DNA of 64,000 nt from positions 310,001 to 374,000 of the forward strand of contig NZ_AMPG01000002.1 of the NCBI RefSeq assembly GCF_000299415.1, in the 5' to 3' direction. A program made the position numbers and the translations under genes. The notes beneath the pieces are model-generated. The model worked only from the letters and a program-made list of their open reading frames with translations, was not told the DNA's origin and did no database searches. The stretch's first letter is position 1. Every line of letters begins with the position of its first letter. Shown piece by piece: positions 6,301 to 21,669 of the stretch. Source of the stretch: Candidatus Microthrix parvicella Bio17-1. Its GTDB lineage: Bacteria; Actinomycetota; Acidimicrobiia; Acidimicrobiales; Microtrichaceae.

Positions 6301-6346
6301 GGTTCCCACGGTACTTCCCCTCGGTGTGGCGGTATCATCGTCGCCG

Positions 6347-7327
6347 ATGATCATCACCCGCACGCCCCTCCGCATCTCCTTGGGCGGCGGTGGAACCGAC
6401 CTTCCCAGCTACTACCGGCAGCGGGGCGGACGGCTGGTGTCGGCGGCCATCAACCGTTACGTGTACATCTCGATCAATCCCACGTTCACTGACGACTACC
6501 TGTTGAAGTACTCGACCATCGAGCGGGTGGAGGACATCGCGTACATCGACCACGACATCCTGCGCACCGCGCTGGGGCTCCATCAGATTCCGCCGGGTGT
6601 CGAGATCGTCTCGATGGCCGACATTCCCGCCGGTACCGGTCTGGGCTCTTCCGGGTCGTTCACCGTGGGATTGTTGCGGGCCTTGTACGCGCACCGTCAC
6701 GAAGCCGTGTTGACCGATGCGCTGGCCGAGCAGGCCTGTGCCATCGAGATCGATCACCTCAAGGGGCCGGTCGGCAAGCAGGACCAGTACATCGCCGCCT
6801 ACGGGGGGGTCACCTCGTTTGACTTCCACCCCGACGACAGCGTCGATGCCCGGCGCCTTGGGGTCAGCGACGACACGCTTGGCGATCTGGAGGAGCACCT
6901 GCTGCTGTTCTTCACCGGCTACTCACGGGCCGCTTCGGCCATGCTGGCCGACCAGGACCGCCGCACCGTGGAGGCGGACGAAAAGATGCTGGCCAATCTC
7001 GACCACACCAAAGCCCTGGGTGATGAGATCTCCGAGGCGCTGCTCAGCGGCAACACCGCCGCCTTTGGAGAGCTGATGCATGAGCACTGGGAGGCCAAGC
7101 GGGCCCGCACGTCTGGGATGTCCAACGCCGACATCGATCATCACTACGAGACCGCTCGAGCTGCAGGCGCACTGGGCGGCAAGGTGGTCGGGGCGGGTGC
7201 AGGCGGATTTCTTCTGGTGTATGCGCCCGAGCCCAACCGGGTTCGTCGGGCGATGCGGGCCGAGGGTCTGGGGGAACTCCGATTTCGGTTTGATCACCTG
7301 GGGTGCACCGTCCTGACGGCCGGTTGA
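6347..7327 (+). CDS. hddA: GHMP kinase, D-glycero-D-manno-heptose 7-phosphate kinase-like
   Basis: GHMP-family sugar kinase of 326 aa. Motif 1 is TPLRISLGGGGTDLPSYY, the ATP-binding motif PAGTGLGSSGSFTVG, a KGPVGKQDQY segment, and the C-terminal motif VGAGAGGFLLVY. The GGGGTDLPSYY start is typical of HddA kinases, which phosphorylate D-glycero-D-manno-heptose 7-phosphate at C1 on the GDP-heptose route. Related fucokinase-like enzymes share it, so the substrate is an inference. The partners that support heptose are the HddC-like transferase directly downstream (22-nt gap) and the GmhA-like isomerase at 14.8-15.4 kb. ATG at 6347. Confidence 0.8.
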   Translation: MIITRTPLRISLGGGGTDLPSYYRQRGGRLVSAAINRYVYISINPTFTDDYLLKYSTIERVEDIAYIDHDILRTALGLHQIPPGVEIVSMADIPAGTGLGSSGSFTVGLLRALYAHRHEAVLTDALAEQACAIEIDHLKGPVGKQDQYIAAYGGVTSFDFHPDDSVDARRLGVSDDTLGDLEEHLLLFFTGYSRAASAMLADQDRRTVEADEKMLANLDHTKALGDEISEALLSGNTAAFGELMHEHWEAKRARTSGMSNADIDHHYETARAAGALGGKVVGAGAGGFLLVYAPEPNRVRRAMRAEGLGELRFRFDHLGCTVLTAG

Positions 7328-7349
7328 TGCCGAGCAGGGCGGGAGGAAC

Positions 7350-8147
7350 ATGACCGATCGATCGGAAACGTTGCTCCCAAGCCAAACGCGTGGCAACAGG
7401 GTGAACCGCCGACAATGCGTGATTCTCTCCGGCGGGCTGGGCACCCGGCTCGGCGACCTTGGGCGTTCGCGCCCAAAACACCTGGTGGACGTGCTCGGCC
7501 GACCCTTTGCTCATCGCCAACTGGAGTGGCTGCGCACTCAAGGCGTCACCGACGTGGTGGAGTGCGTCGGACACCTGGGTGACGAGATTCGCGCCGAACT
7601 CGGCGATGGGTCAAGGTTCGGCCTCTCGATCACCTACAGCGATGACGGCGTCCAAGGCGCGACCTCGCCGCGGCCGGGAACCGGCGGGGCACTGGTGTTG
7701 GCGCATCGTCGCGGTCTGCTGCAGGAGAGGTTCTGCGTGCTGTACGGCGACAGCTGGCTTCGGCTTGACCTGGGCAGCCTGTGGGATGAAGCCGCTCGGA
7801 ACGGAGCACCGGCGACCATGGCCATCATCGAGAACAGCAACGGCCGGGAGGCCTCGAATGTGTCGCTGGACGAGCATCGACTGCGCTACGCCAAGGGTCA
7901 GGGAGTCGCCCAGAACCAACCCGAACGAACACACATCGACTACGGCATCAGCGTGATCAGCCGTCATTTGATCGCCGGTCTGGACGACGGGACCGCGACG
8001 CCCCACCTGGACCTCGCCGACGCTGTGGCGGCCTGGTCGGCACGCGGTTTGGTGGCACCCTTCGAGGTCAGCCGCCCTTACGACGAGGTGGGTACGCCCG
8101 AGGGCATCGACCGCCTCGAGGCGGCGTTACTGGCGGGCGACCGCTGA
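7350..8147 (+). CDS. hddC: sugar-1-phosphate nucleotidyltransferase, HddC-like
   Basis: NTP-transferase of 265 aa. The nucleotide-binding signature is SGGLGTRLG with RPKHLVDVLGRPF, then PGTGGALVLAH, the metal-binding YGDSWL and DYGISVIS. This pattern fits D-glycero-alpha-D-manno-heptose 1-phosphate guanylyltransferases, making GDP-heptose; other sugar-1-phosphate substrates cannot be excluded. The ATG has a good ribosome binding site (GGGAGG, 4 nt away) 22 nt after the kinase stop, so the two are co-transcribed. Confidence 0.78.
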   Translation: MTDRSETLLPSQTRGNRVNRRQCVILSGGLGTRLGDLGRSRPKHLVDVLGRPFAHRQLEWLRTQGVTDVVECVGHLGDEIRAELGDGSRFGLSITYSDDGVQGATSPRPGTGGALVLAHRRGLLQERFCVLYGDSWLRLDLGSLWDEAARNGAPATMAIIENSNGREASNVSLDEHRLRYAKGQGVAQNQPERTHIDYGISVISRHLIAGLDDGTATPHLDLADAVAAWSARGLVAPFEVSRPYDEVGTPEGIDRLEAALLAGDR

Positions 8148-8169
8148 TCCTGTCAGCATCGTCATCACA

Positions 8170-9417
8170 ATGAGCACCTCCACGCACCCGGCGCCGCCTC
8201 ACACCGTGCAGCACCATCCCGACGACCCAGCGCTGGAGGTGTGGATTCCAGTCGATGACGTGGTCGAACCACAGGTGTCAATCGTCATTCCGGCCCTCAA
8301 CGAGGCGATCACCATGGAGACCTTCGTCGCCTGGTGCCACCAGGGCCTTGCCGATGCCGGCGTCCGCGGCGAGATCCTGATCGTGGACAGCTCCGACGAC
8401 GACACCCCCCAAATCGCCGTGGCCGGCGGCGCACGGGTGCTGCGCACACCCAAGCGCGGCCTGGGCCGGGCCTATTTGGACTCCATCGCCGTGATCAGAG
8501 CACCTTGGGTCATCATGGGCGACGCCGACTGCACTTACGACTTCCGCCTGTTGGCGCCGTTCATCGACGCATTTCAGGACGATTGCGAGTTCGTCATGGG
8601 CAGCCGTTGGAAGGGCACCATCGAGGACGGGTCCATGCCCGCGCTCCACCGCTACTTTGGTACCCCCTTCACCACCTGGATTCTCAACCTGCTCTACAAC
8701 TCGGACTTCTCCGATATCCATTGCGGCATGCGGGGTCTCACCCTCGACGCGCTCGAGCGAATGCAGTTGGTGTCCCAGAGCTGGGAGTACGCGTCGGAGA
8801 TGGTGATCAAGTCGGTGCACCTGGGGCTACGCACCCAGGAGGTGCCGGTGAGGTTCCTCAAGGACGCCGAAGGCCGGGTCAGCCACCACAAGCGCGCCGG
8901 TTGGTTCAGCCCGTTTGCGGCAGCCTGGATCAACCTGAAGGCCATGTTCATCCACGGGGCCGACTTCTTCCTGGTTCGCCCCGGCCTGGCGGCGTTGGTC
9001 GTCGGACTGCTGCTCACTGTTCCGTTGGTGGCGGGTCCGCTCACCGTCGCGGGCGTCACGTTCACCACGACGACGATGATCTTTGGGCTCGTGGTCAGCA
9101 CCCTGGGCATCTTCAGTTACCAGTTGGGCCTGCTGGCCCGGGTGATCTACGACCGTCGGGGCATGACCACCCAACGTCTGCTGAGGCGTTACCGCTACAC
9201 GCGCACCGTCGGTTCGACGATGGTCGGGGGCGTGCTGGGGGCGCTGGCCACATTGCCCCTCCTGGTGCGCTACGTCACCCGCGACTTCACGCTGACCAAG
9301 GGCGACCTGCCGGTGGCTCACCTGGCCATTGCAGGACTCACGCTCGGTGTGACGTGCTTCGCCACCTTTGCCTTCACCCTGCTGCTGCATGCGCTCGCTG
9401 CCACACGGCGTCGATAA
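8170..9417 (+). CDS. family 2 glycosyltransferase with C-terminal membrane helices
   Basis: 415 aa. The N-terminal GT-A domain (about residues 35-260) has VSIVIPALNEA, VDSSDDDTP, the DxD-containing MGDADCTYDF and MGSRWKGTIEDG, resembling dolichol/polyprenyl-phosphate mannosyltransferases. The C-terminal third carries about four membrane helices (for example LVVGLLLTVPLVAGPL and LAIAGLTLGVTCFATFAF). It probably loads a sugar onto a polyprenyl phosphate or onto a growing surface glycan at the cytoplasmic membrane. It could supply the lipid-linked donor for the two GT39-like proteins in this island (inference). ATG at 8170, 22 nt after hddC. Confidence 0.82.
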   Translation: MSTSTHPAPPHTVQHHPDDPALEVWIPVDDVVEPQVSIVIPALNEAITMETFVAWCHQGLADAGVRGEILIVDSSDDDTPQIAVAGGARVLRTPKRGLGRAYLDSIAVIRAPWVIMGDADCTYDFRLLAPFIDAFQDDCEFVMGSRWKGTIEDGSMPALHRYFGTPFTTWILNLLYNSDFSDIHCGMRGLTLDALERMQLVSQSWEYASEMVIKSVHLGLRTQEVPVRFLKDAEGRVSHHKRAGWFSPFAAAWINLKAMFIHGADFFLVRPGLAALVVGLLLTVPLVAGPLTVAGVTFTTTTMIFGLVVSTLGIFSYQLGLLARVIYDRRGMTTQRLLRRYRYTRTVGSTMVGGVLGALATLPLLVRYVTRDFTLTKGDLPVAHLAIAGLTLGVTCFATFAFTLLLHALAATRRR

Positions 9418-9467
9418 CCGGTCCGTTGGAGCCGCGCCCACTACGGAAACCGGGCGATGCCGCGGTG

Positions 9468-10319
9468 CTACAGGTCCGGAAGCGGTTCGTCGGCGACCTT
9501 CACCACGGTGAGGTGCCCGTTCAGGTTCGTGATTCCACGCAACACGCTGCCGGCAGCCGACATGAGCTGCATACCAAGCGTTGCGATGCCTTCGCATTCG
9601 TACGAACCGAAATCATCAAAGATGACCAGCCCACCGACCCCTAAACGGGGCCAGGCCCACTTCAGCGTGGACAGGGCCGACGAGTAGACATCGACGTCGA
9701 TGTGAACCAACCGCAGGGAACTCCCGGCCCACGCCGCACCGGTGTCATCGGGAAACCGGCCCACCGCCAGGCTGGCGCTGACCCCTGGGAACCGAGCTTT
9801 CAACGACTCGACCACCTCGACGGACGTGTCGGCGTGCTCGCCCCCTTCGTACCACGGGTCCTGGTCCCCGGCGCCGACCACTCCCTCAAAGGTGTCGGCC
9901 AGAATCACGGTTGCGTCCAGGCCGAGTTGGCGGCTGCGTTCCGCCAGCAGGACCCCGGTGCCCCCGCGCCAGACACCCACCTCCAGAACATCACCTGGGA
10001 GATCGGCCACCTGGGCAAGGCCGCTCCACAGATCCCAGCACCGGTAGATGTCAACGAGGGTGTGATCGGTCACCGCCTCGTACACGGCGAGGAATGCCTC
10101 GTCGTCATACCACGGTGACAGCGTGGCGGTTGGAGCCAGCAGACGGTGGGAGTAGCGGGACCTGGACCCATCGACCACCACCTTGGCCAGGAGCCGCTCG
10201 AGCCGGCGACGATCGCGCAACCAGAGCACCGAGCCCTTCGCCAAGCGAATGCCCGCCTCCTTGGGCCCGGCAAGCCCGCGGCCACCACCCGGGTGACCGT
10301 GCGCCACTCCTGGGCTCAT
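9468..10319 (-). CDS. TylF/MycF-family O-methyltransferase-like protein
   Basis: About 283 aa. SAM-binding EVGVWRGGTGVLLAE, then ADTFEGVVGAGDQDP, and the acidic metal-site block HIDVDVYSSALSTLKWAWP followed by GGLVIFDDFG are typical of the macrocin O-methyltransferase (TylF) family. These are metal-dependent sugar or small-molecule O-methyltransferases. In this setting it may O-methylate a glycan sugar (inference). Its ATG overlaps the stop of the upstream LamG-like gene as TGATG, so the two are translationally coupled. A GTG at 10322 is the alternative start. Confidence 0.75.
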   Translation of the reverse strand: MSPGVAHGHPGGGRGLAGPKEAGIRLAKGSVLWLRDRRRLERLLAKVVVDGSRSRYSHRLLAPTATLSPWYDDEAFLAVYEAVTDHTLVDIYRCWDLWSGLAQVADLPGDVLEVGVWRGGTGVLLAERSRQLGLDATVILADTFEGVVGAGDQDPWYEGGEHADTSVEVVESLKARFPGVSASLAVGRFPDDTGAAWAGSSLRLVHIDVDVYSSALSTLKWAWPRLGVGGLVIFDDFGSYECEGIATLGMQLMSAAGSVLRGITNLNGHLTVVKVADEPLPDL

Positions 10320-11158
10320 CACGAGCCTTCGAGAGCAGCAATCTGAGGTGAGGAGAACGTTGCCGGGGCGCCGGAGGTGGCAATGACCCCGACCTTTCTC
10401 GATTCCTCCAGCGACGGATCGGACACCGCAAAGAACGGCTCACCCTCGGAGGCCAGCGTGACGGTGTCGCCTTCGTGTTGGACCTGCCAGGAGACACCTC
10501 GGCCAAATTCCGTCGGGCCGATCACCTGAACCCCTTTGCTCTCACCATCCCTCACGTGATTCACCGCTGCTGCGGCGTAGGTGGAGTTGAACGTCAGTTC
10601 CCAGTAATTTTCGGCGTCCTCCACCCCGAAAACCAATCCGGCATTGTCGGATGGCTTTTCCACCACGATCGAGAATCGCCAATCCTCACCGAATTTGGTC
10701 GGCATCTCGACGACGGCCATCGGGCTCGCACCCACCGGTTCGGTGTCGGTCACCAGTTCTCCGTTGTCCGGTTGCCAATCGCCCTCGCCCACCACCGACC
10801 AGGACAGCGGCCCGCCCTTGAGCGTGTCGCGATCCAGGTCGTCCACCACGGGAGTTGCGGCCGGTGCAAGTTGTGACGGGGTGGCAGCTATGGCGCCGTC
10901 GCCGGTGAACGCCTTGGGGTCGGGCTGGCCTGAAGGCGCGGAATCGGCGGACGGGCTGGAATCGTCGGACGAGCCACCGCCCACGAAGTTCACCAGGACG
11001 ACTACGAGCAGAATGACCGCACCCGCAACCGCGAGCCCGAGGAGCAACCGCTTCTCGCTGGACGTCAACGCCTCATCCTGGTTGGCACCCTCTGGCGGCG
11101 GATCGACCGGCCTGGGCTCGTTCGCTTCTGATTCCATTGTTCGCTCTGGTGTATCCAT
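10319..11158 (-). CDS. single-pass membrane protein with extracytoplasmic LamG-like domain (copy A)
   Basis: 279 aa. A charged cytoplasmic N-terminus (about 35 aa) precedes one strong membrane helix LLLGLAVAGAVILLVVVLVN, a Ser/Asp/Pro-rich linker, and a beta-rich C-terminal domain of about 170 aa. That domain contains SWSVVGEGDWQPDNGE and NAGLVFGVEDAENYWELTF, resembling concanavalin/LamG-like folds. The same architecture and motifs recur in the gene at 18.1-18.8 kb, so the two are paralogs. Possible roles are glycan binding or anchoring at the cell surface; no catalytic residues are recognisable. ATG at 11158 has AAGGA 6 nt upstream. The TylF-like methyltransferase follows by TGATG overlap. 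Confidence 0.7.
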   Translation of the reverse strand: MDTPERTMESEANEPRPVDPPPEGANQDEALTSSEKRLLLGLAVAGAVILLVVVLVNFVGGGSSDDSSPSADSAPSGQPDPKAFTGDGAIAATPSQLAPAATPVVDDLDRDTLKGGPLSWSVVGEGDWQPDNGELVTDTEPVGASPMAVVEMPTKFGEDWRFSIVVEKPSDNAGLVFGVEDAENYWELTFNSTYAAAAVNHVRDGESKGVQVIGPTEFGRGVSWQVQHEGDTVTLASEGEPFFAVSDPSLEESRKVGVIATSGAPATFSSPQIAALEGS

Positions 11159-11213
11159 CGCCGTCCTTCAACCGAGTGCCGGCGAAACAGTAGTTGACCT
11201 GAACCCGACCTGG

Positions 11214-11954
11214 TTACAGGATGAACCCCGACGCCACGGCATCGTTGCGAAACATGGTCACCGTGTCCAGAGAGAACTGATCGAGATCCTTCCCAATCGT
11301 CGCGAGCTTCTCGATGAGATCCGACGTCATCGTGATCACGTGGCATCCAACCTGCGCGGCCTGCACGTAGTTGAACACCTCTCGCGGGCTCGCCCAGATC
11401 AGTCGCTGGGAGGGTTCCGGGTCGAGCATCGCAACTGCCGCAGACATGATCGGCATGGGGTCGCGTCCCGCGTCGGCCACACGACCGGCGAAGACGGAAA
11501 TGTAGCTGGGAGGTCCACCGGCCAGCGCCGCCGACACCACAGCAACCTGCCGGACGTTCATCAGCGCCGTGACGTTCAATTGCACACCGTCAGCCGCGAG
11601 GTCGGCCACCACCTGGTGTGTGGAAGTGCCATCGGTCGTCATCACGGGGATTTTGACGAAGACCGAGTCACCCCAGCCGGCCAACAATCGAGCTTGGCGC
11701 CCTATCTCGTCAAGATCGTCGGCGAGCACCTCGAAGGAGATCGGTCGCCCGCCCACCACTTCGAGAGCGCTTCGTGCAAAGCTCTCATAATCGGTCACCC
11801 CCGCCTTTCGCAGGAGGGTTGGATTGGTGGTGAACCCACTGACGCGCGGGTCACCGGCAAGCTGAATCAGTGTGGGAAGGTCGGCACCGTCTGCAAAGAC
11901 CTCTGGTGCATCCAGATGGGCGGTACCGTCCAAGCGGTTGAGAGCGTTGGCCAT
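11214..11954 (-). CDS. transaldolase / fructose-6-phosphate aldolase-like enzyme
   Basis: 246 aa from the ATG at 11954 (a GTG at 11981 is also in frame). Class I aldolase features of the transaldolase family are clear: GFTTNPTLLRKAG, the Schiff-base lysine in VFVKIPVMT, LNVTALMNVRQ, SVFAGRVADAGRDP and LIWASPREVFN. The family moves dihydroxyacetone units between sugar phosphates (sedoheptulose 7-phosphate, fructose 6-phosphate). Inside a glycan island that also has heptose-type genes it could supply sedoheptulose 7-phosphate (inference). The short transaldolase type fits better than the long housekeeping TalB/Tal type. Confidence 0.75.
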   Translation of the reverse strand: MANALNRLDGTAHLDAPEVFADGADLPTLIQLAGDPRVSGFTTNPTLLRKAGVTDYESFARSALEVVGGRPISFEVLADDLDEIGRQARLLAGWGDSVFVKIPVMTTDGTSTHQVVADLAADGVQLNVTALMNVRQVAVVSAALAGGPPSYISVFAGRVADAGRDPMPIMSAAVAMLDPEPSQRLIWASPREVFNYVQAAQVGCHVITMTSDLIEKLATIGKDLDQFSLDTVTMFRNDAVASGFIL

Positions 11955-12099
11955 GGTGCAGACCGTATCGGCAGCCACCACCGGTTCCCAAGGCTGTCAA
12001 CCAGAAGTGGGGCGATAAGCTGACGCCCTGAGCCACCCCTGTCCAGCAAGCGAGGCAAGCATCGCCCCCCCTGAGTCGACGACCACCGACCACCCCCAG

Positions 12100-13758
12100 G
12101 TGCACCGGTCAAACCGGTTTGTCAAGATCTGCAGAAATCGCCGCTGGCGGGTCGGTTTTGGTGGCGCCGTTTTGGTGCTCCTGTCGTTGTTGGGGTCGCT
12201 CCAGACGGCCGCAAGGTCGACTCAGATCGACGAGACGCTCTGGGCGGGCCGGTCTCGACAGTTCGCCACCGGGCTGGTCACCGGCCAACCACGGCTGATG
12301 ACCGCGTTTCCCGTCAACGACGCCGACACCGGGAAATCAATCACCATGCCGGGGGTGACGACCATGTGGGTTGGCACGGGTGTGCTGCTCTACGAGTGTG
12401 TCGTTCGTGACCCTGCACCGGACGCGTTGCAGGCCTGCGTCAAGGACCGCGAACGCCCAGACCGCCGAAGTGTCCACATCGTGATGGCGCTGCTCAACGC
12501 CCTGCTGCTCCTCGGTCTCTGGCAACTCTGCAGGAAGCCGTTTGGCGAAATGGCTGCGGGCATCGGTGCTGTTCTCATCGCCGGCGAGCCGTTCCTTGCA
12601 GCACTCAACGGAATGTTCCACACGGACGCATTCATCGCCTACCTGTCGATGATCGCCTATGTGGCCCTGTGCCGGTCGCTCTCCCTGTTCGGCAAGGAAG
12701 AGGAGCCCTCCCGTTTTGCCGGGCTGGCGGGTGTTGCGTTCGGGCTGGCGATCCTGACGAAACTGACGGCAGTGGGCCTGGTTCCGGCGGCTGCGGTCTG
12801 TGTGGGCTGGGCGTTGTTCAAAGAGTGGGGCAACCCAACCGCACCAAAAAGACTCGTGAAGCGGTTTGTGGCCCTGCTCCGCGGGCCGACGGCACGTCGG
12901 GTTTTCATCGGCGTTGCTGTCGCCATGGTCACGTTTTTCGCACTTTGGCCGGGCATGGTGGCGGATCCGGCCCGACAGGTTGGCGCGCTGCGCTCATCGG
13001 CCAAGCTGGCCGAGTTGGGACACGGACAGTTCTTCCGAGGCCGCTACAGCTCCGATCCCCCCTGGTACTTCTCGTTTTACGTGCTCGGCTTCAGGATGAC
13101 GCCTTGGTCGTTCCTTGGTTTGTGCCTCATCCCACTCCCCCTCCTTCTCCGCAGGGTGGACAGGCGGTGGTTGCTCATCGCCACATTCATTGCCTCTCAG
13201 TCGCTGTTACTCGGCCTCTCGGCGAAGAAGATCGATCGCTACTCGGCCGTCCTCCTCGTCGGAATAGCCTTCCTCATCGGGGTGTCCTTCGACCTCGTCT
13301 TCGGGTACTGGGCGCGGTCAAAATTCAGACGGACATCGATCGTTTGGATCGTTCCGCTCGCCCTGGTGCTCGGGACGGGGCTCGTGTACCACACGATCCA
13401 AAGCGGGCAGCGTGCCTCCATCTACTACAACGAGGCGCTCGGTGGACTCAGCGAGGCCGAGGGTCAGGTGCTGGTGACCTGGAGCGGAGAGCCGTTCGAA
13501 GCGAAGGAGTGGTTGGATAAGCGCTACGAGGGCGACAGCTCGCGCTACGTCCAATGTCAACCAAGCTTTTGGGGGGACGAGCTCAGCTGTCCTGAGACCG
13601 AGCCAGGTCAGGATCGGGTGTACGTCGAGACCATCTCAGACCGTCAGCTGGGACGAAGGCTCATCCCGGCGCGCGAGAAGGATCTCTGGTCACGCGTCGA
13701 CTCCTACAACGTCGATGGGGTTGAGATTTTGACCTACTGGGTGAACGAGGCGTCGTGA
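12100..13758 (+). CDS. polytopic glycosyltransferase, GT39/ArnT-like (first copy)
   Basis: 552 aa with about ten membrane helices, starting at GGAVLVLLSLLGSLQTAA. The first periplasmic loop carries the acidic pair ST-QIDETLWAGRS, followed by TMPGVTTMWVGTG, resembling the D/E-rich loop and H/xPG motif of protein-mannosyltransferase-like GT-C enzymes. A soluble C-terminal tail of about 120 aa contains CQPSFWGDELSCPE. Such proteins move sugars from polyprenyl-phosphate donors to acceptors outside the membrane. Start is GTG 12100, with no strong ribosome binding site. It stands alone on the plus strand between minus-strand glycan genes. Confidence 0.75.
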   Translation: MHRSNRFVKICRNRRWRVGFGGAVLVLLSLLGSLQTAARSTQIDETLWAGRSRQFATGLVTGQPRLMTAFPVNDADTGKSITMPGVTTMWVGTGVLLYECVVRDPAPDALQACVKDRERPDRRSVHIVMALLNALLLLGLWQLCRKPFGEMAAGIGAVLIAGEPFLAALNGMFHTDAFIAYLSMIAYVALCRSLSLFGKEEEPSRFAGLAGVAFGLAILTKLTAVGLVPAAAVCVGWALFKEWGNPTAPKRLVKRFVALLRGPTARRVFIGVAVAMVTFFALWPGMVADPARQVGALRSSAKLAELGHGQFFRGRYSSDPPWYFSFYVLGFRMTPWSFLGLCLIPLPLLLRRVDRRWLLIATFIASQSLLLGLSAKKIDRYSAVLLVGIAFLIGVSFDLVFGYWARSKFRRTSIVWIVPLALVLGTGLVYHTIQSGQRASIYYNEALGGLSEAEGQVLVTWSGEPFEAKEWLDKRYEGDSSRYVQCQPSFWGDELSCPETEPGQDRVYVETISDRQLGRRLIPAREKDLWSRVDSYNVDGVEILTYWVNEAS

Positions 13759-13807
13759 CCCTGTGCGGTTCTTGGCCAAGCGTCTGCTTTGCCCTTCGAC
13801 CCGGCCG

Positions 13808-14794
13808 CTAGCCCGTTTGAGCGCCGCCCATCGATGCCAAGGCCCAGTCCATGGCCTGGGCCGACGTCCGCTTCGGTTGCCAACCCGTCCCCCGGATTCT
13901 TGAGGTGTCGAGGCGGACCACCGGCACATCACCCCGCCAGCCGACTCGACCGCCGGTGTGCGCAAAGGTGACCGCTGCCGGGTCCAATCCCAAAGCTCGG
14001 CACGCTGCGCGCCCGATGTCGTCCACGCTTAAGGCGTCATCCGTCGACACGTTGTAGACCTCGTAGGGACGGTGGTCGTTGGCGTCCAAAACTCCCAGAA
14101 TGGCATCCAGAACGTCCTCGACTGCGATGTAGCACTTGGATTGCCGACCATCGCCCAAGATCTCCAACAGCCCCGGCGATCGGCCGAGCTTCGCCAGGAA
14201 GTCGTAGCCCACACCATGGGTCTGGCGGGGGCCGACCACGTTGGCAAACCGAAACGCCCGGCCACGGAGTCCGAACATGTGGGCATAGGAGCACACCAGG
14301 GCCTCACCGGCGAGCTTGGATGCCCCATAGGTGGACACCGGCCTGAGCGGACCGTGGTCTTCCGGAATCTCGAAGTCACCCAGGTCGCCGTACACACCGC
14401 TGCCCGACGCGTAGACCACCGTGCCAACTCCATTTCGACGTGAGGCCTCGACCACGGTGTTGGACAGCCTGGTACCCGAATCGAAGTCGATTTCGGGCTC
14501 GGTGACCGCCCGGGCAATGTCGGGGTTGGATGCCAGATGCACGACGACGTCGATGCCCGCGAGTGCCGGGACCGTCACCGAGGGGTCGCCACAATCGCCG
14601 ACGACCAGGCTCACCCGCTCGTCGTGGAGCGAAGCCCCGAGCTGCTCGCGGCTGCCCGAAGAGAGGTTGTCGAGCACCACGACGCGCTGGGCCCTCCCCT
14701 CGCCCAAAAGGCGCTCCACCAGGTGGGATCCGATAAATCCGGCCCCGCCAACCACGCACCAGGAGCCGCCGACCTCGCTGCCTTCAGCTTCCAC
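13808..14794 (-). CDS. NAD-dependent sugar epimerase/dehydratase
   Basis: Extended short-chain dehydrogenase of 328 aa. Glycine-rich NAD-binding VVGGAGFIGSHLVE, LDNLSSGSREQL, and the catalytic STYGASKLAGE (YxxxK) are visible. Similar enzymes are UDP-glucose 4-epimerases and nucleotide-diphosphate-sugar epimerases; the exact nucleotide sugar is not deducible, but GDP-heptose is a candidate given the neighbours. GTG 14794 has GGGAG 7 nt upstream and lies 11 nt inside the end of the SIS isomerase gene, indicating co-translation. Confidence 0.82.
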   Translation of the reverse strand: MEAEGSEVGGSWCVVGGAGFIGSHLVERLLGEGRAQRVVVLDNLSSGSREQLGASLHDERVSLVVGDCGDPSVTVPALAGIDVVVHLASNPDIARAVTEPEIDFDSGTRLSNTVVEASRRNGVGTVVYASGSGVYGDLGDFEIPEDHGPLRPVSTYGASKLAGEALVCSYAHMFGLRGRAFRFANVVGPRQTHGVGYDFLAKLGRSPGLLEILGDGRQSKCYIAVEDVLDAILGVLDANDHRPYEVYNVSTDDALSVDDIGRAACRALGLDPAAVTFAHTGGRVGWRGDVPVVRLDTSRIRGTGWQPKRTSAQAMDWALASMGGAQTG

Positions 14795-15386
14795 GGAGCG
14801 ACTCCCATTTGGTGGCCCGAGTCTGCAGTTTGGGATGACTCACCAGGAGGTGCCACACCACCGCCGCCATCCCCTCGGTATGTGGAGTCACGCGTGCGTC
14901 CTCGACGGTAGGAATGATCACGCAGGCATCCGCTCGCCTGGCGGTCTCTCCACCGTCGCGACCGACGATGCCGCTTACCGAAGCGCCGACGGCGACCGCC
15001 GCATCGATCGCCTCGACCAGGTTGGCCGAGACGCCCCGCTCCCGGTCACCACCCCCCACGCTGAAGATCAACAATCCATCGGCCGGGCCCAGGCGGGACC
15101 CAGCCAACCATCCGGCAAACACACCGGCCCAGCCATCGTCGTTGATGCGGGCGGTCAGCTCGGACACGTTGTCGGTTGGCGCATAGGCCTCGAACCCGCA
15201 CAACTTGCGGAAGTCGTTGACCGCATGCGACGCGTGCCCTGCCGAGCCGCCGACCCCAAGGATGAACAGGCGGCCCCCGCCGTCGCGAACAGCTGCCAAG
15301 GTGGTTGCAACCGCCTCGATGGCAGACCCGTCGAGTCGCTCGACGATCGTCCGTGTTTCATTCAGATAGGTGTCAACGAAACTCAA
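14784..15386 (-). CDS. SIS-domain isomerase, GmhA-like
   Basis: 200 aa, a single SIS domain: LFILGVGGSAGHASHAVNDFRK, DGLLIFSVGGGDRERGVS, and GVSANLVEAI helices. Size and the leading four-helix segment resemble sedoheptulose 7-phosphate isomerase GmhA, first step of ADP- or GDP-heptose synthesis. The typical GmhA His/Glu catalytic pair cannot be assigned with certainty (TPHTEGMAAVVWH near the C-terminus is a candidate). Epimerase gene overlaps its 3' end. With the hddA/hddC-like genes it forms a nearly complete GDP-heptose set, lacking only a recognisable GmhB phosphatase. Confidence 0.72.
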   Translation of the reverse strand: MSFVDTYLNETRTIVERLDGSAIEAVATTLAAVRDGGGRLFILGVGGSAGHASHAVNDFRKLCGFEAYAPTDNVSELTARINDDGWAGVFAGWLAGSRLGPADGLLIFSVGGGDRERGVSANLVEAIDAAVAVGASVSGIVGRDGGETARRADACVIIPTVEDARVTPHTEGMAAVVWHLLVSHPKLQTRATKWESLRGS

Positions 15387-15436
15387 TTGCCCTCCCGGTC
15401 GAGGAGCAGCGTACAGGCGCCGATCCGGTCATCGGC

Positions 15437-16627
15437 TCATTCGACGGCCTTCGGGGGGTCGGCACGGGTGAGCTGTTCGCGTTCCACATCGCTGCGGCCC
15501 ACCCCCAGCAGGAACAGCACCACGTCGAGATAGGGCACCGAGATGGTTGCATCGGCCACATCTCGCAGAACCTTTTTGGCATTGAACGCGATTCCCAGCC
15601 CCGCCCGGCCCAGCATGTCCAGGTCGTTGGCGCCGTCGCCCACCGCCACCGTCTGAGCCAACGGTATGCCGGCCCGGCCGGCCAACTCGGCCAGCAGTTC
15701 GCCCTTTCGGGCCCGGTCGACCACCCGGCCCTCAAGGCGACCGGTGAGCCGACCATCGATGACCTCCAGATCGTTGGCGTGCGTGGCATCAAGGCCAAGC
15801 CGCTCCCCCACGATGTTGGTCATCATCGAGAACCCACCAGAAAAGGCCACCACATCGAAACCAAGCCGCTTCAGCGTCGCAACCAGCGTGCGGGCACCCG
15901 GTGTGAACGGCACCTCGGCGGCGATCCGCATCAGCACGCTCACGTCGAGCCCCTTCAGCAACGCCACACGAGCCCGAAGCGCAGACTCGAAGTCCAACTC
16001 ACCGGCCATTGCAGCCACGGTGAGCGCCCCGACCTCAGCCCCGCAGCCGGCCTCCTTGGCCACCTCGTCGATCAGCTCACCCTGGATCAGGGTGGAGTCA
16101 ACGTCAAAGGCCACGAGGCGCATCGCTCGACGCCCGAGGGTCTCCCGCTGTACGGCGACGTCCACGCGGGCGGCGGCCCCTGCCGCGGTCACCGCCGAGC
16201 GAATGCCCTCGGCATCGGCGCCGGACACCCGAAGCTCGTAGCAGTAGACCGGATATCGGGCCAGCCGAACGATGCGATCGATATTGGCTCCGAGCGACCC
16301 CAGCGTGTCGGTGATGATCTCCAACGCCGCCGCGGTGATCGTGGGCGCCAGCACGGTGACGATCTGGGTCTCCGCAGGTTGGGTACCGGCGTCGGCCACC
16401 TCATCCAGTTGAACTGACAAGCCGTGACGCGCGCCGAATGCCGCCAGCTCCCGACGAACCGAGTCGGGCCGATCCGTGGCCACCACCGCCGCCAGAATAA
16501 GCCGCTGACGAACCAGCACCTGTTCAAGGTCCTCAAGGTCGGCCTCCAGCGCTGCCAGCGTGGACATGAGATCGGCGGTGATACCCGGCCGGTCCGCACC
16601 GATGACCCGAACCGCCAGGTTGGTCAC
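15437..16627 (-). CDS. serB: phosphoserine phosphatase with N-terminal ACT domains
   Basis: 396 aa. N-terminal ACT-like region (starts VRVIGADRPGITADLMSTL) with a second regulatory segment around residues 85-165, then a HAD phosphatase domain with DxDST nucleophile motif VAFDVDSTLIQGE, AFSGGFSMMTN, and VGDGANDLDML. This is the ACT-SerB architecture of actinobacteria (last step of serine synthesis). GTG start overlaps the stop of the upstream membrane glycosyltransferase as GTGA. It is a housekeeping gene embedded in the glycan island; I do not read it as the missing heptose phosphatase. Confidence 0.9.
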   Translation of the reverse strand: MTNLAVRVIGADRPGITADLMSTLAALEADLEDLEQVLVRQRLILAAVVATDRPDSVRRELAAFGARHGLSVQLDEVADAGTQPAETQIVTVLAPTITAAALEIITDTLGSLGANIDRIVRLARYPVYCYELRVSGADAEGIRSAVTAAGAAARVDVAVQRETLGRRAMRLVAFDVDSTLIQGELIDEVAKEAGCGAEVGALTVAAMAGELDFESALRARVALLKGLDVSVLMRIAAEVPFTPGARTLVATLKRLGFDVVAFSGGFSMMTNIVGERLGLDATHANDLEVIDGRLTGRLEGRVVDRARKGELLAELAGRAGIPLAQTVAVGDGANDLDMLGRAGLGIAFNAKKVLRDVADATISVPYLDVVLFLLGVGRSDVEREQLTRADPPKAVE

Positions 16628-18105
16628 GCTGTACCCACCATCTCCGACGTTGGCGTTGCGTCCAACGGCACCTCCGAGTCAAGGGGCTCCGAGTCAAGGG
16701 GCTCCACGACGGGCGGCTCCGGGGTCGGCGACCACCTCCGCAACCAGCGACCGAGGCCGGTGTCGGCCATTGCGGGAGTGGATCGGCCGACCACTGCCAG
16801 GCAGCGGGCGGCAGCCAAGCCTGCATACGCGATCATCAGCGGTTCGAGCGCCATCCGGTAGCGATCCGCCCCCTGGGTGAGGCTCACGGCGGCCACGACG
16901 GAGCCCGCCACCAGGATCACGGGGGCAATCAATTGACCTTCCCGGCGGGCCAGCACCACGCCTGCGATACCAAGTGGCAACAGCAACTGCCACGAGATGA
17001 GTCCACCCCACACCACCCAATGCGGGCCTCGCAGCTCCAGGACCTCGATGAAGAAGCTCTGCTGTACCGGCCGAAAAAAGCCGAACGTGCGGGCGATTCG
17101 TGCCGCGGCGACCACCGGGAGCCTCGCCCGGTGAGTCTGGATGTAGTCACCGGCGATGTTCCGAGCGACCAGATCCCGCTCGCTGGCGTCCATGTCCAGG
17201 TTCATCAGGCTTCGGCTTCGGTCGAAACACGAATAGTCCGAGTAGCCGGTCAACGGCCCGTAGAACGCGGAATCGCAGTTGCCCTGCAGCATCGTGGTGC
17301 CGACGCCGGTGGTCATCAAGACCGGCTCCTCGAAGCGGTGCATGTTGGACCAGAGCCACGGGCCCAACACCATCAGGGCACCTGCACCAAACGCTGCGCT
17401 GTGCAACGCCAGGCGCTGCCACGGCAGCGACCGGTGACGCCACAGCAGCACCAAGATCACGACGCCCGCCAGGATCAGTTCCGATCGCGTGGCGGCCGCG
17501 ACCCCAAGCGCCAGGCCTGCGGTCAGCACTGCGCCAGGTCCTGGCCGGTCGTCGTAGACCAGCAGCGCGTACAGCCAAAGCGAAGTTGCCGTCATCACCA
17601 GTGGCTCAGCCAGGATCAGCGCATCCCAGCTCCACATGTTCACGTTCACTGTGGCAATCACCGCCGCCCCGATCGCGGCCCAGCCCACCATGCGTGCGCT
17701 GGGCGGAGGGCCGCGACGGCGGCGGCCCGCCAGTCGGGCAGCGGAGAGCGCAAGCAACGGCACGGCAAGTGACCCAACCAGAGCCGTGAGCATTCGATGA
17801 TCGTCCGGCGTGGTCAGCCCAATTCGGCTGCCCAGGCTCAAGAGCACCGGGTAACCGGGAGGATGGGCCGCCGTTTCCTCGGTGACCATGGAGAATTCGA
17901 ACGCTCGCCGAAAGCCCTCCTTCGGCAGCGAATTGCCAAGAGCGTGGTAATAGCCGCCGTCTCCGGTCAGTGGCTGATCGGGGTTGATCTGGGTGATGTA
18001 GGCGACCCGAAACCCCAAGGCCACCATCCAAATGGCGAGCACGACCCACAAGACGCGGCCGGGCACCGCAACCCGCTTGGGTGCGAGCGCCGACTCATCC
18101 TCCAT
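16624..18105 (-). CDS. polytopic glycosyltransferase, GT39/PMT_2-like (second copy)
   Basis: 493 aa, about ten membrane helices beginning VLWVVLAIWMVALGFRVAY. The first outer loop has DQPLTGDGGYYHALGN and then AAHPPGYPVLLSLG, the acidic residues and HPPGYP motif of ArnT/PMT-type GT-C transferases. A Glu/Pro/Asp-rich cytoplasmic tail contains a short duplicated EPLDSEPLDSE segment. It probably adds a sugar from a polyprenyl-phosphate donor to a surface acceptor. ATG 18105 lies 11 nt inside the end of LamG-like copy B, so it is translated in the unit copy B - this gene - serB. Confidence 0.8.
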   Translation of the reverse strand: MEDESALAPKRVAVPGRVLWVVLAIWMVALGFRVAYITQINPDQPLTGDGGYYHALGNSLPKEGFRRAFEFSMVTEETAAHPPGYPVLLSLGSRIGLTTPDDHRMLTALVGSLAVPLLALSAARLAGRRRRGPPPSARMVGWAAIGAAVIATVNVNMWSWDALILAEPLVMTATSLWLYALLVYDDRPGPGAVLTAGLALGVAAATRSELILAGVVILVLLWRHRSLPWQRLALHSAAFGAGALMVLGPWLWSNMHRFEEPVLMTTGVGTTMLQGNCDSAFYGPLTGYSDYSCFDRSRSLMNLDMDASERDLVARNIAGDYIQTHRARLPVVAAARIARTFGFFRPVQQSFFIEVLELRGPHWVVWGGLISWQLLLPLGIAGVVLARREGQLIAPVILVAGSVVAAVSLTQGADRYRMALEPLMIAYAGLAAARCLAVVGRSTPAMADTGLGRWLRRWSPTPEPPVVEPLDSEPLDSEVPLDATPTSEMVGTA

Positions 18106-18808
18106 CGCGGTAAACCTTCACGCTGTCGAACGACACGGCGGCACCGCCGGCGGACGACAGCCCCACGTTGGTTGGCATCTCCTCCAGAGCTACCTGGCCG
18201 AGCGTCAGGTTGCCCACCCACACTTGGACCTCGTCCCGGCCGAACTCCAAGGTGATGTCAAACGACCCGGCCAGGTCGACCGGGCCGAACGTATTCAAAG
18301 CAACGGCGCCGGCTCCATCGATGCGCTCGACACCGGCTGCGGCGAACGACGGGTTGAAGCTGACCCGCGTGAAGTCCTGCGGTGAGCGGTACCCATAGAC
18401 CAGGCCGACGCCGTCAGCGCCGCCTGAGACGCGGGCCTGAACGACCAGCCGATCTGCTTGTGGCAGCTTGGTCAGCGCCAACGAGGGGGTCGCAAGCTCG
18501 GGGTCGGCGATCAACTTCGCCTCGCCGTCGGCCGTGACCCAATCGCCCGCCACAACCTCCCAGTCGGCCGAATCCGACAACGGCCCGTCGGCACCATCAA
18601 AGTCATCTGCGACGACCTGCTGGCCGAGCACCAGGTCGGGTGCCTGGGTAGCGGCGTCGGGGGGCCTCAAGGTCGTTTCGTCGTAGCGCTCCGCCAGCAC
18701 GACCACGGCCCACAACAGGAGTGACACCTGCGCCACCCGGAACAGAACGCGCAGCGGCGACCGCCCCAGAAGGGGCGGTCGCCGCTGCGACGCGTCGGTC
18801 GAGACCAC
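18095..18808 (-). CDS. single-pass membrane protein with extracytoplasmic LamG-like domain (copy B)
   Basis: About 237 aa from GTG 18808; GTG 18736 is a shorter alternative. A basic N-terminus precedes the membrane helix VAQVSLLLWAVVVLAE. Outside it, DWEVVAGDWVTADGEAKL and GVGLVYGYRSPQDFTRVSFN match the motifs of copy A (10.3-11.2 kb), giving the same LamG/concanavalin-like domain. The two are paralogs at opposite ends of the same island. The frame also runs through the Gly-rich 3' end of pnp, which is shadow. A perfect 17-bp hairpin (18751-18788) lies within the codons after the preferred GTG, which either attenuates expression or argues for the shorter start. Confidence 0.65.
   Translation of the reverse strand: MVSTDASQRRPPLLGRSPLRVLFRVAQVSLLLWAVVVLAERYDETTLRPPDAATQAPDLVLGQQVVADDFDGADGPLSDSADWEVVAGDWVTADGEAKLIADPELATPSLALTKLPQADRLVVQARVSGGADGVGLVYGYRSPQDFTRVSFNPSFAAAGVERIDGAGAVALNTFGPVDLAGSFDITLEFGRDEVQVWVGNLTLGQVALEEMPTNVGLSSAGGAAVSFDSVKVYRDGG
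18751..18788 (-). terminator. perfect 17-bp hairpin downstream of pnp
   Basis: Two perfectly complementary 17-nt arms (18751-18767 and 18772-18788) are separated by a 4-nt loop. It lies 40 nt past the pnp stop codon on the pnp strand. There is no U-run after it, as is common in GC-rich actinobacteria. It could terminate or attenuate pnp transcription before the glycan genes, or protect the pnp mRNA 3' end. It overlaps the predicted N-terminal codons of the LamG-like copy B. Confidence 0.6.
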
Positions 18809-18827
18809 GCCGGAAGGCTCGGTGGGC

Positions 18828-21392
18828 CTAGCGACCGCGCCGGCCACCCCGGCCCCCGCCGCCTCCACGGCGACCGCCGCCGCCGCCACCCGCGTTACGG
18901 GGGGCGGGCTCGGGTCCAAGATCGCCGTAGGCCTCGGTCAGCTTGGCCTCCAGCACCGGAGCAAACTCAGGTGCCCGCTGTGGGCCGCCCGAGCCACTGC
19001 CACCGGAATCGGTGCTGCCCGAATCGGACGCACCGGAAGCCTGGGCAGCGCCGTCGCGACCACCGGAGCGGTCGTCGTTGCGGCCGGACGTGGCGGCGGA
19101 ACGGCCCTGTGACGGGCCGTCAGCTTTTGGGGAATCAGACCGGCCTCCGCCGGTGTCCCCGCCGGACTTTCCGCCGGTGTCGCCGGCCATGCGCAGCGAC
19201 ACCTTGCCGTTGGGGTCGATGTCCTCCACGTACACGGCGAGGTCCTGGCCCAACTCGAGCACGTCCTCAACCTTGTCGATGCGCTTGCCGCCACCGATCT
19301 TTGAGATGTGCAGCAAGCCGTCACGGCCAGGCAGGATGTTGATGAAGGCGCCGAACTTGGTGATCGAGACCACCTTGCCGGTGTACTCCGCGTTCACCTC
19401 GGGGGTGGGCGGGTCGAGGATCAGACGGATCTGACGCTCGGCCTCGGCCACGGCGTTGCCGTCAACGGCCGAGACGGACACAACGCCCACCATGCCGTCG
19501 TCGTCCACCGAGATGTCGGCACCGGTCTCACCCTGGATCGAGTTGATCACCTTGCCCTTGGGGCCGATGACCTCACCGATCTTGTCGGCGGGGATCTCGA
19601 AGCTGATGATCTTCGGCGCGGTCTCGTTGACCTCTGAGCGAGGCTCGGGCAGCGCGGCGTTCATCGAATCGAGGATCGCCAGACGAGCCTCCTTGGCCTG
19701 GTTGAGGGCGGCGATCAGCACGTCGGCGGGGATGCCCTCGATCTTGGTGTCGAGTTGCAACGCCGTGACGAACTCGGACGTACCGGCCACCTTGAAGTCC
19801 ATGTCGCCGAAGGCGTCCTCCGCACCGAGGATGTCGGTGAGGGTGGTGTACTTCCCGTCGGCGTACACCAGGCCCATCGCGATACCGGCAACCGGCGCCC
19901 GCAGGGGCACACCGGCGTCCATCAGCGAGAGGCTGGATGCGCAGACCGACGCCATCGAGGTCGAGCCGTTGGACGACAGCACCTCGGACACCAGCCGGAT
20001 GGTGTAGGGGAACTCCGACATGGCGGGCACCAGTGGGAACAGCGCCTTCTCGGCGAGCGCACCATGGCCGATCTCGCGGCGCTTCGGGCCACGCATGAAG
20101 CCAGGCTCGCCGGTGGAGAACGGCGGGAAGTTGTAGTGGTGCATGTAGCGCTTTTTGGTGACCGGGTCGATGCCGTCGATCATTTGGTCCATGCGGCCGA
20201 TACCCAAGGTGGTGATGTTGAGCACCTGGGTTTCGCCACGCTGGAACAAGCCGGTGCCGTGGGCGGTGGGCACGACGCCAACCTCCGACGACAGGGGACG
20301 CAGGTCCTTCGGACCACGGCCGTCGATGCGGGCGCCGTCGTTGACGATGCGGCTGCGCACCGCCTCCTTGGTGGCGGCACGGAAGGCTGCCTTGGCCTGC
20401 TTCTCGGCGTTGGAGCGCTCGGCCTCGTCTGCGGCGCCGGCCACGGTGGCGACCAGCTCGTCACGCAACGCGGATTCGGCAGCGGTGCGCTCAGCCTTGT
20501 CTGCGATCGACGCGGTCTCAACGATGCGGTCACCGGCGGCCGCAGCGACGGCGTCGGCGACCTCGGGGCTGTAGTCCACCTGCGGGACCCAGGCAATCGC
20601 CTCGGGGATGCCGTGAGCCTCCTGATGGACCTCCACCAGCTGACGCTGCAGCTCGATCATGGCTGCGATGTGTGCCTTGGAGGCCTCGAGACCGGCCGCA
20701 AGGGCCTCCTCGTTCACCTTGGGGGCGCCGTCTTCGTAGAGCTCCCAGGCACCCTCGGTGCCACCGGCCTCCACCATCATCACGGCGATATCACCGTCTT
20801 CGAGTTGGCGCCCGGCAACGACCATGTCGAAGGCTCCGGCGTCGGACTCGGCATAGGTGGGATGGGCCAGCCACTCGCCATCGGCGGTGTAGCTCAGGCG
20901 GACGGCGCCGACGGGCCCCTCGAAGGGGATGCCCGACAGCATCAACGCTGCCGAAGCGCCGTTGAGCGCCAGCACGTCATAGGGGTTTTCCTGATCGGCA
21001 CCCAGCACGAGGCCCACCACGTGCACCTCGTTGCGGAAGCTGCTGGGGAACGACGGACGAAGCGGCCGGTCGATCAGTCGGCAGGTGAGGATTGCGGCCT
21101 CTGAGGCACGCCCCTCACGGCGAAAGAACGAGCCCGGGATCTTGCCGGCGGCGTACGAACGCTCCTCGATGTCGACCGTGAGCGGGAAGAAGTCGGCGCC
21201 CTCGCGCACCCGGCGGGATGCCGTGGCGGTGACGAGCACCCTGGTGTCCCCCATGCCGACCAGGACGGAGCCGTCGGCGAGGGAGGCCAGCCGTCCGGCC
21301 TCCATGGTGATTTCCTTGCCGTCGACGAGATCGGTCTCTTCCGCGACGGTTGCGCGCACTCTCAGTGCGCCTTCGATTGGCTGTGTGGCCAT
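18828..21392 (-). CDS. pnp: polyribonucleotide nucleotidyltransferase (PNPase)
   Basis: Phosphorolytic 3'-5' exoribonuclease, about 854 aa. Two RNase PH domains (first around residues 15-150 with SFFRREGRASEAAIL; second with RGETQVLNITTLG and the catalytic-region FGDMDFKVAGT) are separated by the all-alpha domain. KH domain PADKIGEVIGPKGKVIN and S1 domain YTGKVVSITKFGAFI follow. The tail is long, Ser/Asp then Gly/Arg-rich, as in actinobacterial enzymes. ATG 21392 has an excellent AAGGAG 6 nt upstream. Usual neighbour rpsO is upstream, but separated by a plus-strand lipoprotein-like gene. Confidence 0.97.
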   Translation of the reverse strand: MATQPIEGALRVRATVAEETDLVDGKEITMEAGRLASLADGSVLVGMGDTRVLVTATASRRVREGADFFPLTVDIEERSYAAGKIPGSFFRREGRASEAAILTCRLIDRPLRPSFPSSFRNEVHVVGLVLGADQENPYDVLALNGASAALMLSGIPFEGPVGAVRLSYTADGEWLAHPTYAESDAGAFDMVVAGRQLEDGDIAVMMVEAGGTEGAWELYEDGAPKVNEEALAAGLEASKAHIAAMIELQRQLVEVHQEAHGIPEAIAWVPQVDYSPEVADAVAAAAGDRIVETASIADKAERTAAESALRDELVATVAGAADEAERSNAEKQAKAAFRAATKEAVRSRIVNDGARIDGRGPKDLRPLSSEVGVVPTAHGTGLFQRGETQVLNITTLGIGRMDQMIDGIDPVTKKRYMHHYNFPPFSTGEPGFMRGPKRREIGHGALAEKALFPLVPAMSEFPYTIRLVSEVLSSNGSTSMASVCASSLSLMDAGVPLRAPVAGIAMGLVYADGKYTTLTDILGAEDAFGDMDFKVAGTSEFVTALQLDTKIEGIPADVLIAALNQAKEARLAILDSMNAALPEPRSEVNETAPKIISFEIPADKIGEVIGPKGKVINSIQGETGADISVDDDGMVGVVSVSAVDGNAVAEAERQIRLILDPPTPEVNAEYTGKVVSITKFGAFINILPGRDGLLHISKIGGGKRIDKVEDVLELGQDLAVYVEDIDPNGKVSLRMAGDTGGKSGGDTGGGRSDSPKADGPSQGRSAATSGRNDDRSGGRDGAAQASGASDSGSTDSGGSGSGGPQRAPEFAPVLEAKLTEAYGDLGPEPAPRNAGGGGGGRRGGGGGRGGRRGR

Positions 21393-21669
21393 GTGGTTCT
21401 CCTTGATGTGGTGCATCCGCGCATTTCGTGCGACGGCTCACACCTCTGTGGAGCGGAGAGGCCAGCAGACAGTTGTCGGCCTCCGAACGTCCCCAGGGTC
21501 AGCGAGGAACGAAGTCGCTCGGTGACTCGGGCGGCGCTTCGGGGGGCGGCAACTGGCGGCTGGACTCAACCGCATTCGTGAACCCCCCATCGTAGCCGAC
21601 AATCCCCGCTCGCCGCTGCGCCCGCCGGCACCGCTGCCACAACGGCCGCACCCGATACGCTGAATCGTC

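Follow-up and report, generated by a model that had tools for sequence, protein, structure and literature searches.

The genes dapB (5509-6375, minus strand) and pnp (18828-21416, minus strand) of “Ca. Microthrix parvicella” Bio17-1 enclose, besides serB, eleven frames of a putative nucleotide-sugar and surface-glycan island. All coordinates refer to the window, the 64,000-nucleotide stretch of contig NZ_AMPG01000002.1 (contig positions 310,001 to 374,000) that was analysed. The kinase, nucleotidyltransferase, GT2 and, further on, PMT_2 genes lie on the plus strand, and the remaining genes lie on the minus strand. With domain calls from Pfam and NCBIfam models, the features are as follows.

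6347-7327, plus: GHMP sugar-1-kinase (HddA/WcbL/LmbP-like), in the cassette kinase clade; HddA model NF049969, 134.3 bits (cut-off 600); structure 4usm, 141.6 bits
7350-8147, plus: sugar-1-phosphate nucleotidyltransferase (LmbO/HddC/MurU-like; candidate base G); PF00483; MurU and HddC models below cut-off
8170-9417, plus: GT2 glycosyltransferase, C-terminal part with membrane helices, whose structural model suggests a polyprenyl-phosphate sugar synthase; PF00535; AglJ, 106 bits (cut-off 325)
9468-10322, minus: TylF-like O-methyltransferase; PF05711, 65.9 bits
10319-11158, minus: membrane-anchored protein, paralogue of 18095-18919; no Pfam family above cut-off
11214-11981, minus: dedicated transaldolase; TIGR02134, 292.2 bits (cut-off 281.95)
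12100-13758, plus: GT-C (PMT_2, GT39-like) membrane glycosyltransferase; PF13231, 49.3 bits
13808-14794, minus: NAD-dependent sugar epimerase (GalE/LmbM-like); PF01370, 155.9 bits; LmbM, 41.6% over 310 amino acids
14784-15386, minus: SIS-fold ketose-phosphate isomerase of LmbN type; GmhA fold
15437-16627, minus: SerB phosphoserine phosphatase with two ACT domains and a HAD domain; TIGR00338, 238.7 bits
16624-18105, minus: membrane protein, probable GT-C glycosyltransferase
18095-18919 (start probably 18808), minus: membrane-anchored protein, paralogue of 10319-11158; no Pfam family above cut-off

A first-pass annotation had correctly placed the island between dapB and pnp, and the domain models confirm most of its inventory, namely the kinase, nucleotidyltransferase, GT2, TylF-like methyltransferase, epimerase, SIS isomerase and one PMT_2 protein. 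It had counted two GT39-like transferases; the frame at 12100-13758 is one, and that at 16624-18105 stays below threshold (TMEM260-like, 18.9 bits, and PMT_2, 17.7 bits; cut-offs, 24.2 and 26.1). The transaldolase, SerB and the two paralogous membrane-anchored proteins had been overlooked.

The cassette was followed through other genomes by its isomerase. Scanning contigs with the isomerase alignment turned up at least 564 relatives; the best 80 of these and four from genome searches make up the 84 loci considered. Placed by the organism names in their records, the best 80 contig loci belong to 12 named phyla, with four loci unplaced, and all five core genes (transaldolase, isomerase, phosphatase, kinase and nucleotidyltransferase) are present at 39 of them, in nine named phyla and two unplaced. 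A cultured carrier, Caulobacter sp. RHG1 (L060), has all five. The cassette profiles were built from the 84 loci themselves, so that matches there arise by construction: transaldolase at 68 (two types, 60 and 8, one a 65-bit fragment), nucleotidyltransferase at 66, GmhB-type HAD phosphatase at 65 (56 and 9), kinase at 62 and epimerase at 55. Many contigs are short, and 38 loci have at least 5 kb on either side of the isomerase; these hold transaldolase in 33, HAD in 31, nucleotidyltransferase in 35, kinase in 32 and all five core genes in 25. Plasmid matches to the isomerase occur only in Lawsonia and Rhizobium records (five records), and phages gave none. Plasmid 3 of Lawsonia intracellularis carries an annotated isomerase, HAD, transaldolase, kinase and nucleotidyltransferase cassette, accompanied by nucleotide sugar dehydrogenase, SDR and Gfo/Idh enzymes that suggest further sugar modification.

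The lincomycin octose pathway served as the reference. LmbR, LmbN, LmbK and LmbO are described as confirmed, LmbN being a proven octulose 8-phosphate isomerase, and LmbP and LmbM as predicted (PMC4351081); the LmbR reaction is described in PMC5854111, and LmbM and others were later shown to convert guanosine diphosphate (GDP)-octose (PMC12945683). Among 392 genomes taken for Streptomyces because of their many chaplin genes (same phylum as the window genome, other class), five match the window transaldolase (28-34% identity). Isomerase, kinase and nucleotidyltransferase occur at all five loci, joined by HAD and epimerase at four; at the remaining locus, the isomerase borders the end of the stretch analysed. 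One of the five can be identified as the lincomycin cluster, as a glycosyltransferase near its transaldolase matches 8il0/8ila, the PDB code for LmbT (PMC12945683), over all 436 residues with 947 bits. The isomerase of this cluster carries a DltC-like carrier domain, as reported for LmbN, and the other four Streptomyces isomerases are called LmbN-like on this basis alone. Three of the Streptomyces genomes (L168, L169 and L170) have a divergent LmbR/N/P/O/K/M-like set, which may belong to another octose-containing product.

The isomerase provides the strongest argument for an octose, as judged from its predicted active site. The window protein, its 84 relatives and the five LmbN-like proteins were aligned with Escherichia coli GmhA and 20 GmhA-type proteins of the phylum; only one of these 20 exceeds the curated TIGR00441 cut-off, and they are therefore GmhA relatives rather than proven heptose enzymes. 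The residues E65, T120 and Q172 of E. coli GmhA are kept in all 21 GmhA sequences and are replaced by D, V and E in all 85 cassette isomerases, which argues against a seven-carbon product, and in all five LmbN-like proteins. The loop after G122 has seven residues in 83 of the 84 relatives and 10 in the other, seven or 10 in the LmbN-like proteins, and a single residue in the 20 GmhA-type proteins (the window and E. coli loops were read off the alignment itself). His61 and His180 are retained in 85 of 85 cassette isomerases versus 20 and 16, respectively, of 21 GmhA sequences. In place of the GmhA pattern, the window isomerase thus has H/D/E/H, V at position 120 and the loop insertion; its own residues at the three changed positions are D58, V110 and E171. 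E. coli DiaA, which is not known to be an isomerase, has S, T and Q at positions 65, 120 and 172 and a short loop. The zinc ligands described for GmhA are H61, E65, Q175 and H183 (Neisseria numbering); in E. coli numbering, E65 is its proposed base and H180 its proposed acid (PMC5387315). Two of the changed positions, 65 and 172, match zinc ligands, and the first of them is also that of the base. The predicted fold is GmhA-like (model confidence [pLDDT], 93.0; top fold match, 2x3y). The label of a GmhA-like isomerase in the first-pass annotation must therefore be amended, as three active-site positions and the phosphate-loop insertion match LmbN and not GmhA. The signature is a simple test that can be applied to any genome.

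The second argument is linkage to a transaldolase. Lys110 of the window enzyme, presumably the Schiff-base lysine, is invariant across 52 aligned sequences, and an ordinary transaldolase is encoded on another contig of the genome (249 bits), which makes that of the island a second, dedicated one. Transaldolase genes accompany 33 of the 38 well-flanked cassette isomerases and none of the 20 GmhA-type genes (stretches of 7-20 kb), around which a GHMP kinase occurs in 11 cases and a GmhB-type HAD in 18. A pathway that starts from sedoheptulose 7-phosphate does not require a dedicated transaldolase. For the GDP-heptose pathway of Campylobacter jejuni, PMC10680097 names four enzymes from sedoheptulose 7-phosphate, and the word transaldolase is absent from it; both this and the GmhA-type loci argue against a heptose. 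Of 296 genomes drawn from the phylum, 152 have ordinary FSA/TalC proteins that a broad transaldolase profile (A3) also catches, and presence by this profile was therefore not used as a count. The four isomerase carriers in that draw nevertheless have the four highest transaldolase scores, all above 220 bits with the next at 172, although three of the four had rows in the profile. Myxobacterial cassettes (L013, L024, L030 and L035) have both the second transaldolase type and a second HAD type, the latter marked by a DEETG-like motif; their transaldolase may have been exchanged or newly recruited.

The terminal phosphatase is missing. As the first-pass annotation stated, the window contains no GmhB-type phosphatase, and none was found in the genome, which is 95% complete (29-row profile, eight weak matches); the best match is a 32.9-bit HAD protein with DLDNT in place of the DRDG motif. 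Gene order shows what was lost. The window reads kinase, nucleotidyltransferase and GT2 on the plus strand, followed by isomerase, epimerase, PMT_2 (on the other strand) and transaldolase on the minus strand. L242, a locus of the same order as the window genome, has kinase, nucleotidyltransferase, GT2, isomerase, epimerase, HAD and transaldolase on a single strand, and L245 is a complete cassette with this gene order, directly preceded by a protein homologous to the second GT-C-like protein of the window (32%, 156 bits). The window therefore contains both halves of the L242/L245 arrangement minus exactly the gene between epimerase and transaldolase, and the opposite-strand PMT_2 transferase sits where other cassettes have HAD. 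The order isomerase-epimerase-HAD-transaldolase recurs in 12 of the 84 loci. Among the 15 HAD matches listed for the window, none lies at 11.9-13.9 kb, and the best fall in serB (15.5-15.9 kb, up to 38 bits). The set includes GmhB in 65 of 84 loci and in 13 of the 15 other carriers from the same taxonomic order, and its absence from the window is a local loss. SerB is the sole phosphatase beside the cassette, but it was dismissed as a cassette member since it occurs beside pnp in relatives without the cassette; its position beside pnp in four of 10 relatives suggests that it is probably a local housekeeping gene.

The remaining genes point to a destination at the cell surface. In the model of the GT2 protein (pLDDT, 82.9), the first 17 fold matches are all polyprenyl-phosphate transferases, the closest being ArnC, dolichyl-phosphate mannose synthase and GtrB, at 14-19% identity and with TM-scores of 0.37-0.45 by query and 0.47-0.58 by target. 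The sugar would thus probably travel via a lipid carrier to GT-C transferases. Relatives of the GT2 (54-60%) occur in seven of the 84 cassette loci. Ten membrane frames near them comprise two PMT_2 proteins above and one below the cut-off, one flippase-like protein and six with nothing clear, and together with the PMT_2 and subthreshold GT-C proteins of the window they fit a polyprenyl-phosphate-sugar donor route. The TylF-like methyltransferase had no blastp best match in the 84 cassette loci, and O-methylation is therefore a local guess.

Taken together, the island is read, with slightly more than even confidence, as a variant of a widespread nucleotide-sugar cassette that follows lincosamide-octose logic and leads through octulose 8-phosphate to a surface glycan. 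Eight carbons are favored over seven, with eight about evenly probable and seven well short of that. In the scheme that we infer for substrates, chain length, nucleotide and acceptor, the dedicated transaldolase would use fructose 6-phosphate as the donor of a C3 unit and an aldose phosphate, most likely ribose 5-phosphate, as the acceptor, yielding octulose 8-phosphate, which the LmbN-type isomerase would convert to an aldose 8-phosphate. The GHMP kinase would phosphorylate C1, a phosphatase (presumably another enzyme, since the HAD gene is missing) would remove the terminal phosphate, and the nucleotidyltransferase would form a (G)DP-sugar for modification by the GalE/LmbM-like epimerase. 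The GT2 may then load the sugar onto polyprenyl phosphate, and the GT-C proteins may pass it to a surface acceptor outside the membrane; the TylF-like enzyme may O-methylate it. The earlier proposal is supported as far as it concerns a nucleotide-sugar pathway that runs via a long-chain aldose phosphate and serves the cell surface. Its description as most of a GDP-heptose pathway is not supported, given the LmbN-type isomerase, the extra transaldolase, a nucleotidyltransferase closer to MurU than to HddC, and a GmhB missing through local loss.

Several observations weigh against the octose reading. The window transaldolase falls in a clade with those of other cassettes and stand-alone transaldolases, two of them beside sugar phosphotransferase system (PTS) genes; a 100/100 split separates this clade from LmbR, from the second cassette type and from ordinary FSA/TalC proteins. 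LmbR is 28.6% identical to the window enzyme and scores higher with FSA (133.3 bits) than with TIGR02134 (88.0 bits); the island thus has a dedicated transaldolase of a different clade from LmbR. In a midpoint-rooted tree, cassette and GmhA-locus kinases stand together and apart from LmbP, with which the window kinase does not group. The isomerase tree groups LmbN with the cassette isomerases (100/99), but both are long branches whose attachment points differ when either is omitted; the argument therefore rests on the shared residues and loop and not on the tree. GmhA models score LmbN at 82-88 bits and the window isomerase at only 42-46 bits. The product of LmbN differs from that of GmhA not only in chain length but also in its configuration at C2, so that the D/V/E and loop signature may report C2 rather than length. 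In addition, no LmbK-type HAD phosphatase was found here, and with no GmhB-type enzyme found in the genome the pathway may be interrupted or depend on an enzyme not yet recognized.

A seven-carbon (heptose) product is the foremost alternative and is possible, though we consider it less probable than an octose. In its favor, HddA is the best curated model of the kinase (134.3 versus 106.3 bits for fucokinase), and the solved structures that match it best carry heptose-kinase or sugar-kinase labels: heptose-kinase structures score 107-142 bits and others, on the fucose or hexose side, score 64-68 bits. Structures 4usm and 4usk are of WcbL. On these scores, a fucose or hexose kinase was rejected, so that the clustering with fucose or other sugar enzymes that the first-pass annotation had named as a refutation is not seen, and the HddA-like assignment is supported, although 134 bits is far from the cut-off of 600 and the kinase occupies its own clade. 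The transaldolase is of the TIGR02134 kind, in the clade with stand-alone and partly PTS-linked enzymes, and all 29 relatives' HADs scanned match GmhB models at E values up to 0.001, although the one displayed in full scores below the curated cut-offs. The nucleotidyltransferase had been called HddC-like, an assignment not borne out by its 46.7 bits with HddC (cut-off 300) against 81.8 bits with MurU, both below cut-off; LmbO behaves likewise on the same models (46.5 and 75.8 bits).

A degenerate island, in which loss of the HAD gene and insertion of the membrane transferase broke the pathway so that the nucleotide sugar is no longer made, appears unlikely. The absence of a GmhB-type phosphatase from window and genome favors it, as does the presence of HAD in 13 of the 15 other carriers from the same taxonomic order (within the fetched stretch, no more than about 7 kb away from the isomerase; the exceptions are L243 and L247). 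Yet all other island frames are open, and the checked residues of transaldolase and isomerase are intact. Furthermore, seven of the 38 well-flanked loci also lack a local HAD, and a phosphatase can be encoded elsewhere, as described for C. jejuni (PMC10680097); generic HAD enzymes or SerB could also perform the step, and the genome is 95% complete. Recruitment of the adjacent SerB as the missing terminal phosphatase is improbable. In its favor, serB shares the strand of the isomerase gene and sits 50 bp upstream of it, whereas in the four relatives where it neighbors pnp it has the opposite orientation to pnp. Against it, the protein is a complete SerB including ACT domains (238.7 bits) and is present at the locus in relatives without the cassette.

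The flanks and distribution bear on the origin of the island. The dapB-pnp gap is 12.5 kb in the window versus 0-3.7 kb in eight of the 10 relatives fetched (the stretches of the other two do not include dapB), and the cassette genes had no blastp match in the dapB/pnp stretches of any of the 10. In the four relatives where serB adjoins pnp, it is on the opposite strand to pnp, whereas the window serB is on the same strand, a sign of local rearrangement. The isomerase was found in none of the 24 other genomes of the family searched; within the order, 16 of 347 genomes carry it (the window genome included), as do four of the 296 of the phylum draw. This distribution is patchy, and the island was probably acquired horizontally rather than inherited. 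G+C content gave no clear sign of foreign origin, as the island values (0.63-0.67; near flanks, 0.66-0.70) recur elsewhere in the window (0.65). The membrane-anchored paralogues, one inside the island and one at its pnp end, share 26% identity.

Beyond this locus, we tentatively suggest, with somewhat less than even confidence, that straight-chain aldo-octoses made via transaldolase are ordinary, unrecognized units of surface glycans, and that a horizontally spread lincosamide-like cassette (isomerase in 12 named phyla, five-gene set in nine), annotated as heptose, charges polyprenyl phosphate, the transaldolase having joined the LmbN-type isomerase more than once. As the best-matching curated models bear heptose names, the glycan composition predicted for many clusters may be mistaken. 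Should the product be an octose, a sugar found as GDP-octose only in a lincosamide paper in the literature searched would prove common in envelopes, and one could trace where the lincomycin sugar came from. Octoses on cells are already known: several Gram-negative genera have polysaccharides with branched octoses (PMC4753412), and “several octoses,” probably 3-deoxy-D-manno-octulosonic acid (Kdo), are mentioned for E. coli K antigens (PMC10072801). The new point would be the straight-chain route, and no description of the cassette was found among the matches listed in the open-access literature searched.

Three known systems can be compared with the island. Its GT2 resembles ArnC, dolichyl-phosphate mannose synthase and GtrB in having a GT2 catalytic domain followed by membrane helices and a matching fold, although the membrane part is not well matched. 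With the GDP-heptose pathway, the island has in common the SIS isomerase, GHMP kinase and nucleotidyltransferase superfamilies and the order of steps; it differs in the isomerase active site and loop, the dedicated transaldolase, the absence of GmhB and a nucleotidyltransferase that favors MurU over HddC. With the lincosamide octose pathway of Streptomyces lincolnensis (LmbR-LmbN-LmbP-LmbK-LmbO-LmbM), it shares the same enzyme kinds one for one, phosphatase excepted, and the LmbN-type isomerase signature, at identities to the lincomycin-cluster proteins of 28.6% (R), 33.7% (N), 36.9% (P), 33.5% (O) and 41.6% (M). The island transaldolase is from another clade, a local phosphatase is lacking, and no dehydrogenase, aminotransferase, S-glycosyltransferase or condensation gene was identified in the island, which, instead of antibiotic assembly genes, has polyprenyl-phosphate and GT-C transferases. 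Given the other-clade transaldolase, the kinase apart from LmbP and the lower isomerase score, orthology with the lincomycin enzymes does not extend throughout, but the pathway logic appears to be shared.

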